DNA of 64,000 nt from Desulfofundulus kuznetsovii DSM 6115 (lineage in GTDB: Bacteria; Bacillota; Desulfotomaculia; Desulfotomaculales; Desulfovirgulaceae). The stretch covers positions 1,884,911 to 1,948,910 of the forward strand of contig NC_015573.1 in NCBI RefSeq assembly GCF_000214705.1, written 5' to 3'. Made by a program: the position numbers and the translations under genes. Shown in pieces: positions 7,264 to 11,808 of the stretch. Under the pieces are notes generated by a model. That model was given only the letters and a program-made list of their open reading frames with translations. It had not been told where the DNA came from and searched no databases. Positions within the stretch are counted from its first letter, which is position 1; every line of letters begins with the position of its first letter.

Positions 7264-7836
7264 ATGTGGATTTACGAAAAAAAGCTGGAATACCCGGTGA
7301 AGGTCTATAAGGCTGACCTGCGCATGGCCAAATATCTGATGGCCCAGTACGGCGGCCCCGACAGCGAGTTGTCGGCTGCCGTGAGGTATTTGACCCAGCG
7401 CTACACCATGCCTACAAATAAAGCCAAAGGCCTGCTCACGGACATTGGCACCGAAGAGCTGGCCCACTGGGAAATTGTGGGCACCATGATCTATCGCCTG
7501 ATGAAGGGTGCCACCCCGGAGCAGTTGCGCCGGGAAGATCTGGGAGCTTATTTTGCCGAACACGACCGGGCGGTCTACCCGGTGGATGCCAGCGGGGTCC
7601 CCTGGACGGCCGCCTATATTCAGGCTACGGGAGACCCGGTTACCGACCTGCATGAAAACATGGCGGCAGAGCAAAAGGCCCGCACTACCTATGAGCATTT
7701 GATCCGCCTGACCGACGACCCCGGCGTCAAGGATACCCTGCGTTTCTTGCGGGAAAGGGAGGTGGTGCACTTCCAGCGTTTCGGCGAAGCGCTGGTTGAC
7801 GTCCAGGAGGAGTTGACCCGGAAAAAGATTTTCTAA
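7264..7836 (+). CDS. cotJC: CotJC, manganese-catalase family spore coat protein
   Basis: CotJC, 190 residues, belongs to the dimanganese catalase family and sits in the spore coat, possibly protecting against peroxide. The metal-ligand pattern is intact: E35, E65 with H68 (TEELAHWE), E136 (NMAAEQKA) and H169 (REREVVHF), matching the five ligands of Lactobacillus Mn-catalase. ATG 7264 follows GGACTGGAGAGG. The gene converges on the iron-sulfur scaffold gene and overlaps its end by four bases, with no room for a terminator between them. Confidence 0.92.
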   Translation: MWIYEKKLEYPVKVYKADLRMAKYLMAQYGGPDSELSAAVRYLTQRYTMPTNKAKGLLTDIGTEELAHWEIVGTMIYRLMKGATPEQLRREDLGAYFAEHDRAVYPVDASGVPWTAAYIQATGDPVTDLHENMAAEQKARTTYEHLIRLTDDPGVKDTLRFLREREVVHFQRFGEALVDVQEELTRKKIF

Positions 7837-8270
7837 TCCTGGACTGAATCTCTGACTTGAGATTTCTGGTAATCTTTGATAGCCTCATGCAGGGCGTTTG
7901 CCGCCAGAAAAGCGCAATGCACGCTTTCCTCAGGCAGTCCTCCCAGAGCATCCAGCACGTCACGAGGTGTTATTTGCAAAGCCTCAGGCAGAGTCTTGCC
8001 CTTGGCCAGTTCGGTAACCATACTACCGGCAGCAATGGTGGTGCCGCAGCCGTCAGTCCAGAAGGTAATTTGACTAATTCTACCATCTTTTACCTTCAGC
8101 CAGATCTGGATCGTGTCGCCGCATAAGCCGGTAACACTGGCATACCCGTCTGCTTCTTCAATGCTCCCGATGTTCCTGGGATTGTTGGCATGATCGATAA
8201 CTACATCACTGAATTGTGACCAGATTTTTTTCTGGAGTTCCTCCGCCAATCTATCCAGATCAAAACTCAT
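7833..8270 (-). CDS. NifU/IscU-type iron-sulfur cluster scaffold
   Basis: This 145-residue protein has the NifU N-terminal (IscU) fold that assembles Fe-S clusters. The three cluster cysteines are C50 (TGLCGD), C75 (TDGCGTT) and C119 (SVHCAFLA). Before them is the family start FSDVVIDHANNPRNIG. It has no NifU C-terminal domain. It lies downstream of a NifX/Mrp/MinD gene set, which suggests service to that set rather than general Fe-S assembly, though that is inference. A hairpin at 8318-8335 separates it from the preceding gene. Confidence 0.88.
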   Translation of the reverse strand: MSFDLDRLAEELQKKIWSQFSDVVIDHANNPRNIGSIEEADGYASVTGLCGDTIQIWLKVKDGRISQITFWTDGCGTTIAAGSMVTELAKGKTLPEALQITPRDVLDALGGLPEESVHCAFLAANALHEAIKDYQKSQVRDSVQD

Positions 8271-8317
8271 TTGATAGTCCCCCCTGAAATCATTGGACCT
8301 TTATGCATAAAGTTTAG

Positions 8318-8335
8318 GGAGGGCACAAGCCCTCC
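8318..8335 (-). terminator. Hairpin between NifX-like and NifU-like genes
   Basis: GGAGGGC-(4)-GCCCTCC is a perfect 7-bp stem, followed on the minus strand by CTAAACTTT and on the plus strand by TGTTTGTTTT. The U-tract is better on the plus strand, so its role for the minus-strand operon is likely partial. Confidence 0.45.
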
Positions 8336-8386
8336 TGTTTGTTTTAACCGCATTTAAATCAAGATCTATCAAGAGCCTGGAACCTG

Positions 8387-8767
8387 TTAATGGCAGCCCG
8401 GCCCGTGATGACAGTGACTACCGTGACCGTGGCCGTGGTCACATATGGACCCCCGGCTGACCAGTTCTCCCCGGGCAAAGGCCCGGGCCACCTCTTCCAC
8501 GTTACCGCTGGCACCGGTGATCACCTGCAGGCCGTATTGCTGCAGCGCTTGTATGGCACGGGGGCCTACGCCGCCCAGAATTAATACCTCAACCCCTTTG
8601 TTTTTAAACAGTTCGGCCAGACCTTCGTGGTTATGTTGCAGGGTGACGGTGGATACTGTTTCCCGGCTTTTAATTTCCTGGCCGGACATCTCAAAAATAA
8701 CAAATTCTTCGCTCCTGCCGAAATGCTGGTTAACCCGGCCGCAGTCGTTGGGGAGGGCAATTTTCAT
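8387..8767 (-). CDS. NifX/NafY-like cofactor-binding protein with His-rich tail
   Basis: This 126-residue protein has the dinitrogenase iron-molybdenum cofactor-binding fold (family of NifX, NafY, the C-terminus of NifB and orange protein ORP). The start KIALPNDCGRVNQHFGRSEEF is the family signature. The helix-turn GPRAIQALQQYGLQV comes later. The C-terminal 20 residues are very rich in His and Cys (HGHGHGSHCHHGPGCH), a probable metal site. No nif structural genes are present, so nitrogen fixation is not implied. It overlaps the Mrp-type ATPase gene by four bases. Confidence 0.85.
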   Translation of the reverse strand: MKIALPNDCGRVNQHFGRSEEFVIFEMSGQEIKSRETVSTVTLQHNHEGLAELFKNKGVEVLILGGVGPRAIQALQQYGLQVITGASGNVEEVARAFARGELVSRGSICDHGHGHGSHCHHGPGCH

Positions 8768-9645
8768 GCTCCTTCACGCTCCTTTATTGTTTTTTTGTTT
8801 AATGTTTTTTCCAGAACTTCCACCAAAGGCTCAATGTTTTGCATGGAGGGACCGTTGTAGTTTTCAATGAGCCCGGCATCACCCAGCTCCGTTAAATTCG
8901 GATCAATCGGCAGAACCGCCAGCAACGGCAGGTTGTTTTTCTGTGCTGCTTCTCCCACGTGGCTCGAACCGAAAAGATAAACTTTCTCGCCACAATGGGG
9001 ACAGAGCAGGTAGCTCATATTCTCCACCAGGCCAAGAATAGGTACGTTAATCAACCGGGCCATTTTTATGGCCTTTCTTACCACCATCATGGACAGGTCC
9101 TGGGGTGAAGAAACAACCAGCAATCCGTCCAGCGGCAGGGATTGCATGACCGTAAGCGGTACATCCCCGGTACCCGGGGGCATGTCCACGATCAGGTAAT
9201 CCAGCTTACCCCAGGCTACATCAGTCCAGAATTGTTTAACGGCACCTGACAGGATGGGGCCGCGCCAGATTACCGGGTCGTCTTCCCGGGGCAGTAAAAG
9301 GTTTAAAGACATCATCCGGATGCCCGTTATTGTTCTTGCCGGTAAAATAAATTTATTGAACTGTTCCGGCCGGTCGATTACGCCGAAAAGCTTGGGAATG
9401 CTGGGGCCGGTAATATCCGCGTCCAGGATGCCCACCTGGTGACCCCGGCGGGCAAGGGCAACAGCCAGAAGAGCACTGACCGAAGATTTGCCCACGCCGC
9501 CCTTGCCGCTCATAACCGCAACCACTCGTTTGATATCGCTGGCCTCATTGAGGGGCAGGACGGCAGGTTCCGCACACTTTTCCGGGTTGCATTGCCCGGT
9601 GTTCTTATCTTTACAGGTACTGCACTTTGCCTTGTCTTGGGTCAT
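8764..9645 (-). CDS. Mrp/NBP35-type P-loop ATPase, Fe-S carrier
   Basis: This 293-residue ATPase resembles Mrp/ApbC/NBP35 proteins that carry Fe-S clusters to apoproteins. An N-terminal cysteine cluster (C8, C11, C19, C24) resembles the NBP35 N-terminal site. The deviant Walker A is GKGGVGKS (47-54). The bridging cluster motif is C215-P-H-C218. LDADITGPSIPKLFG and PPGTGDVPL are also intact. It belongs to the run of MinD-type genes upstream. General Fe-S carriage or a role in maturation of the NifX-like neighbours are both possible. Confidence 0.9.
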   Translation of the reverse strand: MTQDKAKCSTCKDKNTGQCNPEKCAEPAVLPLNEASDIKRVVAVMSGKGGVGKSSVSALLAVALARRGHQVGILDADITGPSIPKLFGVIDRPEQFNKFILPARTITGIRMMSLNLLLPREDDPVIWRGPILSGAVKQFWTDVAWGKLDYLIVDMPPGTGDVPLTVMQSLPLDGLLVVSSPQDLSMMVVRKAIKMARLINVPILGLVENMSYLLCPHCGEKVYLFGSSHVGEAAQKNNLPLLAVLPIDPNLTELGDAGLIENYNGPSMQNIEPLVEVLEKTLNKKTIKEREGA

Positions 9646-9652
9646 CGCTTCT

Positions 9653-10519
9653 TCACCTCAATTCCAACAGGGCTTTAAGTTCATCCCACAAAGCCAGTAT
9701 TCCCTCTTCCATGGGGCCGGAACATTCCTGGATGACCGGCCGGCCGCCTTTAACTGCCTCCATTACACTTTCGTCGTAGGGCAGGTACCCCACCACCGGA
9801 ACGGAATACCGGTTGCAGAGTGATTCCAGCGCCCGGGTGTTTTCAGGCTCCAGGTCCCATTTATTTATGCAAACTGCCGCCCGGCATCCGAAATGTTTTG
9901 CCAGCTCCAGAACCCGTTCCAGGTCGTGTCTTCCGGAAAAAGTGGGTTCAGCTACTACCAGAACCAGATCCGCTCCCGATAAGCAAGAAATGGCGGGACA
10001 GCCTATACCGGGTGGACCATCGGTAATGATCAGTTCTTTTGTTCCTTCTTCTGCCAGGCGGCGGGCTTCTTTGCGCACCGCCGCCACCAGTTTCCCCGAA
10101 TTATCTTCGGCTATACCCAGCCGCGCATGTACCAGGGGACCGTAACGGGTATCGGACAGGAATAAATGCCCGGCTACATGCTCTATCATTTCCACTGCCC
10201 CGCAGGGACAGGCGTGATAACAAACGGTACATCCTTCACAGAGAACCGGATCCACAACAAATCCGGGGCCGATGGCATCATACCGGCACAAATGCAGGCA
10301 GAGATTACAGCCCAGGCACTTTTCCCGGTTGATGGTGGCTTTTTTCAAGCCGTAAAAGGGAGAAGACGATTTCAACACAGGGTCCAGGAGTAAATACAAG
10401 TTCGCCGCGTCCACATCACAGTCTGCCATCACTTTACTGGAAGCCAGTACGGCCAGGTTCCCGCAGACGGTGGTTTTACCCGTACCTCCTTTCCCGCTGA
10501 GCACCACTAATTCGCGCAC
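9653..10519 (-). CDS. MinD-type ATPase with inserted [4Fe-4S] ferredoxin domain (second of pair)
   Basis: This ATPase of about 288 residues has a deviant Walker A (SGKGGTGKTT, about 8-17) and an inserted two-cluster ferredoxin: CLGCNLCLHLC and CEGCTVCYHACP. Such proteins accompany orange protein (ORP) genes in anaerobes. I place the start at GTG 10519, behind AAGGGGG, overlapping the previous gene by 13 bases. A longer start at 10576 would need a 70-base overlap. It ends with helices resembling MinD. Substrate unknown. Confidence 0.85.
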   Translation of the reverse strand: MRELVVLSGKGGTGKTTVCGNLAVLASSKVMADCDVDAANLYLLLDPVLKSSSPFYGLKKATINREKCLGCNLCLHLCRYDAIGPGFVVDPVLCEGCTVCYHACPCGAVEMIEHVAGHLFLSDTRYGPLVHARLGIAEDNSGKLVAAVRKEARRLAEEGTKELIITDGPPGIGCPAISCLSGADLVLVVAEPTFSGRHDLERVLELAKHFGCRAAVCINKWDLEPENTRALESLCNRYSVPVVGYLPYDESVMEAVKGGRPVIQECSGPMEEGILALWDELKALLELR

Positions 10520-11364
10520 CGGGCGTAACCCCCTTTTTCTAAAAAGGCCAGTAAGGCTAAAAAGTGTCCCTTCCATTCAGGGCGCACCTCAACAGCAGGA
10601 ATGCCCCGGGCATATCCCCTGGCCACTTCCCGGTCCTGGGGCAACTGGAAAAGCAGGGGGACGCTATTATCGTGGCAGAACTGGCGTATGGAGCTATCAT
10701 CACCATCCGAACGGTTAACAGCCACTCCGCAGGGCACCCCCAGCCTGATGGCCATCTCATATGCCAGTTCCAGGTCATGAAGTCCAAAAGGCGTGGGTTC
10801 GGTAACCAGGAGGCAGAAGCCGGCACCTTTCACTGCCCGGATTACCGGGCAGGAGGTTCCCGGCGGTGCATCGATTATGTTCAATACACCTGGCCGGATT
10901 CGCTCCTTAACTGCCTGGATGAGAGGAGGACTGATGGCCTCACCCACATTTAACCGCCCTTGAACAAAACCAATTTTACCGCTTGAACCTTCTTCAACCT
11001 GTCCTATTTCCCGCCACCCGGGAGAAATGGCTCCGGTCGGGCAGAGATGCCAGCACCCCCCGCAGCCGTGGCACATAGTGGGGAAAAGCATAACCTCCCG
11101 GGGGAGGACAACCAGGGCATGGAAGGCACAAACCTCCGCACACCTGCCACATAAAGTACATTTTTCCTGGTTGATTTCAGGTACCGGAACCCGCACCGTT
11201 TCTTTTTTGTGCCAGCGCGGTTTAAGCATGATGTGACCGTTGGGTTCTTCTACATCACAGTCCAGGAACAATACTTCTCCTTTTTCCGCCGCCACCAGGG
11301 CCAGGCTGCTGGCCACAGTAGTTTTGCCCGTACCCCCCTTACCGCTGGCTACTGCAATGATCAT
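10507..11364 (-). CDS. MinD-type ATPase with inserted [4Fe-4S] ferredoxin domain (first of pair)
   Basis: This 285-residue paralogue of the next gene has Walker A ASGKGGTGKTT (6-16) and a ferredoxin insert with CTLCGRCAEVCAF and CHGCGGCWHLCP near residues 65-110. The phosphate-sensing motif is DAPPGTSCP. The two genes side by side probably encode a heterodimer, as for the paired ATPases of Desulfovibrio ORP loci (family knowledge; pairing here is inference). It starts 5 bases downstream of the NifX-like gene at 11370 and is in the same transcript. Confidence 0.87.
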   Translation of the reverse strand: MIIAVASGKGGTGKTTVASSLALVAAEKGEVLFLDCDVEEPNGHIMLKPRWHKKETVRVPVPEINQEKCTLCGRCAEVCAFHALVVLPREVMLFPTMCHGCGGCWHLCPTGAISPGWREIGQVEEGSSGKIGFVQGRLNVGEAISPPLIQAVKERIRPGVLNIIDAPPGTSCPVIRAVKGAGFCLLVTEPTPFGLHDLELAYEMAIRLGVPCGVAVNRSDGDDSSIRQFCHDNSVPLLFQLPQDREVARGYARGIPAVEVRPEWKGHFLALLAFLEKGGYARCAN

Positions 11365-11369
11365 AATTT

Positions 11370-11741
11370 CTAACCCCTTCCCATACCGCCATGGCTGGGG
11401 GAGTTTGCCCGGCTCAGGAGGGTCAACTGACCCTGGCGGTAAGCCTTAAGGCTCTGGCTTACCGTACCGCTTATTCCCCCATATACCTGGATCCCTGCCC
11501 TGCTGAGCACTTCCATGGCATTGGGTCCAATCCGGTCCACCAGTACCACATTGACGCCCCGGTTGACCAGCAATTGTGCCGTTTGAACGCCGGCACCCCC
11601 ACTGGACTGTGTTCCCGTGTTCTGTAGCCCTTCCCAGTCTCCGCTGTCCAGGTCTACCACGATGAAATACGGGCAGCGGCCAAAGCGCTGGTCTACCCGG
11701 GCATCAATGTGGTTATCCCGGGCGCAAACAGCCACCTTCAT
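11370..11741 (-). CDS. NifX/ORP-like cofactor-binding protein
   Basis: This 123-residue protein is the first gene of the metallocluster set. MKVAVCARDNHIDARVDQRFGRCPYF is the NifX/NifB/ORP signature (family proteins bind Mo- or Fe-containing clusters), continuing with GGAGVQTAQLLVNRGV and the loop GPNAMEVLSRAGIQVY. ORP of Desulfovibrio holds a Mo-Cu cluster. Whether this one does cannot be told. The C-terminus is short and glycine-rich. A strong SigA-type promoter lies about 40 bases upstream. Confidence 0.86.
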   Translation of the reverse strand: MKVAVCARDNHIDARVDQRFGRCPYFIVVDLDSGDWEGLQNTGTQSSGGAGVQTAQLLVNRGVNVVLVDRIGPNAMEVLSRAGIQVYGGISGTVSQSLKAYRQGQLTLLSRANSPSHGGMGRG

Positions 11742-11779: not shown

Positions 11780-11808
11780 ATTTTATTCCTATTTTAGACT
11801 AATGTCAA
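11780..11808 (-). promoter_or_regulatory. SigA-type promoter of the NifX/Mrp/MinD operon
   Basis: On the minus strand TTGACA (11808-11803) and TAAAAT (11785-11780) are separated by exactly 17 bases. This is a near-consensus housekeeping promoter placed 39 bases before the ATG at 11741. Confidence 0.75.

Follow-up and report, generated by a model that had tools for sequence, protein, structure and literature searches.

In this study, we describe a set of six genes in the anaerobic sulfate reducer Desulfofundulus kuznetsovii DSM 6115 which, to judge from its sequences, is an orange protein (ORP)-type locus, a relative of the orange protein set of Desulfovibrio, and which also carries a gene for an IscU/NifU-type scaffold. 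The genes lie on the minus strand at positions 7833-11741 of the window, by which we mean the whole stretch of 64,000 nucleotides that was analysed (1884911-1948910 of a chromosome that is one contig of 3,601,386 bases). We suggest, with a probability that we put at roughly 0.57, that this is an ORP-type locus with a scaffold of its own, which would feed an Mrp ATPase that would in turn fill MinD-ferredoxin proteins. The presence of a scaffold gene beside an ORP locus recurs in other anaerobes and is not a one-off. The orange protein has been isolated with a Mo-Cu cluster and, to our knowledge, is without an agreed function.

The six genes and their likeness to the Desulfovibrio ORP system

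Families were assigned to the proteins of the locus by Pfam and NCBIfam profile searches, and the genes are given here in the order of transcription read from the list of open reading frames (ORFs):

11370..11741, minus strand: P0006, first gene, NifX-like (Di-Nase) protein of 123 amino acids, Orp8/orange-protein-like (PF02579, Nitro_FeMo-Co, 8.4e-26)
10507..11364, minus strand: P0005, MinD-type ATPase with an inserted ferredoxin domain, Orp3/Orp4-like (CbiA 8.1e-13, two Fer4 stretches)
9653..10576 (searched from 10543), minus strand: P0004, second MinD-type ATPase with a ferredoxin domain (CbiA 3.3e-14, Fer4 5.1e-08)
8764..9645, minus strand: P0003, Mrp/NBP35 ATPase, the ATPase part of MrpORP (PF10609, NUBPL/ParA, 6.4e-93)
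8387..8767, minus strand: P0002, NifX-like (Di-Nase) protein with a His/Cys-rich tail, the second MrpORP domain (PF02579, 5.8e-23)
7833..8270, minus strand: P0001, IscU/NifU-type scaffold of 145 amino acids (PF01592, NifU_N, 1.9e-35)

All six genes have the place and the single strand that the initial annotation of this DNA gave them. Its two NifX-like proteins, one of them with a His/Cys-rich tail, are found in P0006 and P0002, and its paired MinD-ferredoxin ATPases in P0005 and P0004, both of which combine 4Fe-4S motifs with a MinD-type ATPase domain. The start codon of P0004 is uncertain, and its overlap with P0005 is at most 70 bases; P0002 overlaps the Mrp gene P0003 by 4 bases.

The three-Cys scaffold named in the same annotation is P0001, whose residues at the IscU positions are three Cys, one Asp and one His (C50, D52, C75, H118 and C119, invariant in a 12-sequence alignment). 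Its nearest solved relative is a NifU-1 protein (entry 4eb5, 4e-37), which we take to be A. fulgidus IscU. By sequence, P0001 is an IscU/NifU-type scaffold with complete cluster ligands, differing from such scaffolds in having about 19 more N-terminal residues. The genome has another NifU gene near 2.01 Mb, with 51% identity to P0001, which lies between a NifS gene (601.5 bits, above the cut-off) and mnmA, with an Rrf2-type regulator beside it; this is the housekeeping scaffold, separate from P0001, and a 100/100 branch splits P0001-type scaffolds from the housekeeping NifU proteins of the same genomes. No NifS was present among the neighbouring genes of P0001 that were examined.

According to a study of the Desulfovibrio vulgaris system (PMC6345978), the ORP complex contains Orp3 and Orp4, with two [4Fe-4S] motifs each, Orp5, Orp8, a NifX-like homologue of the Mo-Cu orange protein, and Orp9/MrpORP, an Mrp ATPase fused to a Di-Nase domain. 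Likewise, the locus studied here encodes a pair of MinD-type ATPases, both of which carry two 4Fe-4S motifs, a NifX-like ORP protein, and Mrp and Di-Nase parts. The likeness to the Desulfovibrio set had been proposed before, and it is borne out by phmmer comparison with solved structures, where P0006 matches ORP (2wfb, 3.8e-15) and MTH1175 (1eo1, 1.1e-22) and P0002 matches 2wfb at 7.9e-07, and by the MrpORP model NF041136, which is tiled by P0003 (model positions 2-257 of 365, 338.7 bits) and P0002 (positions 265-364 of 365, 68.9 bits), neither of which reaches the curated cut-off of 450 bits in a single protein. By these matches P0003 and P0002 are a split MrpORP, that is, an Mrp gene and a separate Di-Nase gene.

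Like MrpORP, P0003 has a deviant Walker A, a CXXC and four cysteines near the N-terminus; in its sequence these four are spaced as CX2CX7CX4C, and the central motif reads CPHC. The N-terminal cluster had been regarded as an extra feature of this ATPase; it is present, but is no oddity, because MrpORP is also described with four N-terminal cysteines, in other, non-canonical spacings (PMC6345978). Where the MrpORP Di-Nase domain has the motif CXHFGHCE in that description, P0002 has HFGRSE; it keeps CDH, and the His/Cys tail follows. This tail, although correctly noticed, is not peculiar to the locus: at least five His in the last 30 residues were counted in 13 of the 23 relatives above 95 bits (a number that includes the window and genus-mates), as against 0 of 86 Orp8-like matches above 70 bits, so that the His-rich tail is a trait of one NifX subfamily.

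There are also differences from the D. vulgaris system. Its genes form two divergent sigma-54 operons, whereas here one strand and a sigma-70-like site are found, and MrpORP is here in two genes. A NifU-type scaffold is encoded here, whereas none of the five D. vulgaris complex members is called a scaffold in PMC6345978. Judged by description, no Orp5-like gene (a small [2Fe-2S] protein) was recognised among the same-strand genes of the set.

Recurrence of the scaffold beside ORP-type loci

The core of the set is widespread. The MinD gene (P0005) was matched in 97 of 113 genomes of the class (E 1e-20), and a NifX-like gene lay near MinD in all 85 class loci examined. ORP-like loci of other Desulfotomaculia that bear DUF134 and DUF5320 share the NifX-MinD-MinD-Mrp core; the two that were tested (L082 and L097) add genes for both domains, neither of which was seen among the window genes examined. 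DUF5320 (L082, L097, L107) and the HTH-like DUF134 (two loci) adjoin ORP-type or scaffold loci, which gives a lead to regulation. In L097 (G019:C13 196000-215500) the scaffold-NifX-MinD-MinD-Mrp-NifX set is present twice in tandem.

A scaffold was counted as linked if a NifU-type gene and the MinD pair shared a strand and lay no more than 5 kb apart. For the class, 80 neighbourhoods from the 96 other MinD-positive genomes, taken mostly in rank order and fetched before scaffolds were considered, gave a linked scaffold in 25 loci, or in 29 of 85 when the window and four loci added later, three of them chosen for having a scaffold, are counted. One further locus (L087) has a NifU gene near the MinD pair but on the opposite strand. 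In the class of a Dehalococcoidia genome (G113), where MinD was matched in 7 of 60 genomes at E 1e-40, four of the eight loci fetched were linked (2/6 without the seed genome). In the phylum of a Syntrophaceae genome (G117), with matches in 59 of 99 genomes, linkage was found in 19 of 32 loci taken by rank, a sample that excludes G114 (a seed), G258 and G269 and did not reach G117 itself. By chance, linkage is expected at about 0.4% per locus, a rough figure that assumes two copies in 3 Mb. The earlier view of the scaffold as part of the set is supported by these counts, but the scaffold is not found everywhere.

The position of the scaffold in linked loci varies, as it may be first or last or stand between the MinD genes; it stands between them in L239, L247, L248, L249, L255 and L262. 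The three Cys motifs were present in 58 of 60 linked scaffold sequences by a loose pattern test. G024 (L098) and G021 (L124) each have two scaffold copies, of which one is without the middle GC motif. Mrp was seen at 47 of the 52 scaffold-bearing loci and at 42 of the 73 that lack a scaffold (Fisher p 5e-05, on rows that are related and contigs that are cut). Seen from the scaffold side, 23 of the best 80 of 175 relatives found shared a strand with the MinD pair, two were divergent from it (L168, Actinomycetota, and L190, Solincola), and 17 had only Mrp and/or NifX nearby. The divergent pairs of L168 and L190 recall the two divergent orp operons.

In trees, the window-type linked scaffolds form one clade (100/100), and the others fall into one or two clades closer to the housekeeping scaffold. 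The first tree had 73 rows after L068 had been set aside as the same protein as L066, and L078, L120 and L130 because the ORF was short or wrong; for a 62-row tree, 37 of the 73 earlier rows were removed to thin the class set, together with L261; and the tree with E. coli IscU was also made without its four longest rows (two of L233, L251_6590 and L259). A repeated independent recruitment of scaffolds to ORP loci was considered and dropped: the first approximately unbiased (AU) tests against a single clade gave p 2.9e-06 and 5.3e-06, but were unfair because unlinked orthologues of the window scaffold had been counted as 'not linked'. A test that included housekeeping scaffolds of the other groups and E. 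coli IscU gave p 0.003, but its 'housekeeping' rows L282 and L286 are window-type, and without them a single origin separate from the housekeeping scaffolds was not rejected (p-AU 0.45, with a grouping set after the tree was seen). The trees thus show two or three deep ORP-associated scaffold clades, which may go back to one origin or to several.

Promoter, flanking genes and nitrogenase

Two intergenic features bear on the transcription of the set:

11780..11808, minus strand: sigma-70-like site TTGACA-17-TAAAAT, 38 bases upstream of the P0006 start (consensus match only, 11/12)
8271..8386, minus strand: P0002-P0001 gap of 116 bases, with a GC-rich hairpin at 8317-8336 that is terminator-like on the plus strand only

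The near-consensus promoter reported earlier can be located at 11808-11780, but promoter-like sites were no commoner in the scanned stretch than in shuffles (2 found, mean 3.0 in shuffles). That all six genes share a strand holds good; that they share this promoter does not follow for P0001, as co-transcription of the scaffold with the other five is unproven because of the gap before P0001, which is also present in two genus-mates (about 450 bases in L029 and about 580 in L028). A sigma-54 promoter driving the set was rejected: with up to two mismatches allowed, no sigma-54-like match was located upstream of P0006 or P0001, and the window as a whole held 17 matches against 23.3 expected by chance. 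Elsewhere in the genome, its third NifX-domain gene lies downstream of a sigma-54-type activator identified by reading (L005, G000:C1 2140021-2143284), and in G066 (L105) an activator with Pfam Sigma54_activat is divergent from the scaffold, which may be compared with the sigma-54 control of the Desulfovibrio orp genes.

The genes on either side of the set are unremarkable. One flank, on the plus strand, holds cotJA, cotJB and a Mn-catalase (cotJC-like) gene; the last is convergent with the scaffold gene, and their 3' ends overlap by four bases (window 7833-7836). On the opposite flank are genes for an EamA transporter and a pyrimidine phosphorylase.

The set had been described as being without any nitrogenase. 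This is true of the locus but apparently not of the chromosome, where a stretch at about 3.365-3.374 Mb holds nifH together with nifDKE-, nifB- and nifV-like genes, only nifH scoring above its NCBIfam cut-off; three GlnB-like genes were read from translations in this predicted nif cluster, one of them profile-checked. Taken as a whole, the earlier interpretation is thus upheld in the ORP likeness and the scaffold association and fails in the absence of nitrogenase at the genome level. Another group of nitrogenase-like genes is found at G000:C1 2183843-2192972 (L007, L008, L017-L021); two of its matches are NifH-like and five are of the NifDK type, and one of them contains an in-frame TGA.

With these genes present, it could be argued that the set serves the nitrogenase cofactor of its own genome as a NifX-like accessory module. 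The NifB-like protein matches just positions 3-276 of 441 of its model and all three NifX-domain matches of the genome lie outside the nif cluster, so that a stand-alone NifX could be wanted. However, P0006 and P0002 score as ORP and MrpORP types, and a genome of the same genus that is 99% complete (G061) has the whole set with the scaffold (L029) and no NifD match, so that NifX proteins of the set are not confined to nitrogenase genomes. In the class, a NifD-like match was obtained in 58 of 113 genomes, 31 of them above the cut-off, and at least 39 genomes therefore have the MinD gene without a NifD-like one. A service to nitrogenase is accordingly very improbable.

Proposed assembly route and its significance

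According to the reading that we prefer, P0001 would build an iron-sulfur cluster with sulfur from the NifS of the genome and pass it to P0003, the Mrp ATPase, in which a bridging cluster would sit at the CPHC. P0003, aided by its partner P0002, would then fill the MinD-ferredoxin ATPases P0005 and P0004, and these would work with the NifX-like P0006 as an ORP-like holder of a metal sulfide. In PMC6345978 the Mrp domain of MrpORP is reported to transfer its cluster to ORP proteins in Desulfovibrio. The scaffold is a natural candidate for the step before Mrp because it recurs beside Mrp-bearing ORP loci; we infer the scaffold-to-Mrp step itself from gene order, and NifS as the sulfur source and any role of the His tail are put forward with the same reserve.

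Several points weigh against this reading. No same-strand scaffold was found within 5 kb in 55 of the 80 class loci, no window-type scaffold stood out in G067 (best match 53%), and P0002 is without the CXHFGHCE cysteines proposed as cluster ligands of the MrpORP Di-Nase domain in PMC6345978. Other points would also fit an ORP-type locus that relies on the general NIF/ISC machinery; the scaffold paralogue would then be a neighbour that does something else, or serves the cell in general, and has no part in a dedicated pathway. Besides the loose gap before P0001, here and in the two genus-mates, the window-type scaffold is on a different contig from the MinD pair in G066 and G068 (the same family; the G068 copy is near a contig end), a scaffold relative in L117 stands next to [NiFe]-hydrogenase-like genes (by reading of translations), and 38 of the best 80 scaffold loci from the 175 relatives had no set gene above thresholds in flanks of which many were short. 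A search with the housekeeping protein in 20 genomes of the two other groups, 16 of which carry a linked scaffold, showed a non-window-type copy elsewhere in 10 of the 16, but no separate housekeeping-type scaffold in the other six (G166, G187, G214, G215, G248 and G260, genome completeness not given), so that in these genomes the whole cell may depend on the linked copy; G187 has an additional, unlinked window-type scaffold. On the other side, same-strand linkage recurs in all three groups that were sampled starting from MinD, and also inside the MinD pair. We consider a mere neighbour to be somewhat unlikely, though it is the likeliest of the alternatives.

It has also been proposed that proteins of this kind act in cell division. 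PMC6345978 assigns ORP a putative part in cell division and describes MrpORP as polar, and PMC4672049 puts forward, as a hypothesis, that the Z-ring is positioned with their help; the MinD pair might thus mainly position a division or polar complex, with metal centres that only sense the redox state. A membrane-tail helix on the MinD proteins was considered and rejected, and that argument was not reproduced, because in P0004 and P0005 alike the C-terminal segment is not more amphipathic than same-residue shuffles (0.395 and 0.84 of shuffles, respectively, reach it, by a crude test). A primarily positional function seems to us distinctly unlikely.

The ORP set is known; no report of a NifU or IscU gene in ORP-type loci was found by title or abstract start among the papers listed, in a search that did not reach most subscription papers or the main orp operon paper. 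PMC6345978 leaves open whether the assembly of the MrpORP cluster depends on general ISC/SUF or on a parallel route, and a scaffold beside or between ORP genes is a direct candidate for the missing step upstream of MrpORP, one that six small proteins make testable. It is a far-reaching and, in our estimate, doubtful extension that many ORP-type loci of anaerobes are self-contained metal-sulfide assembly lines, in which a scaffold of their own and an ATP-driven carrier would supply dedicated acceptors of the MinD-ferredoxin and NifX types, and which would run parallel to NIF, ISC or SUF and make a cluster that the general system does not. Scaffold-bearing loci such as this one could help to find the purpose of the orange protein.

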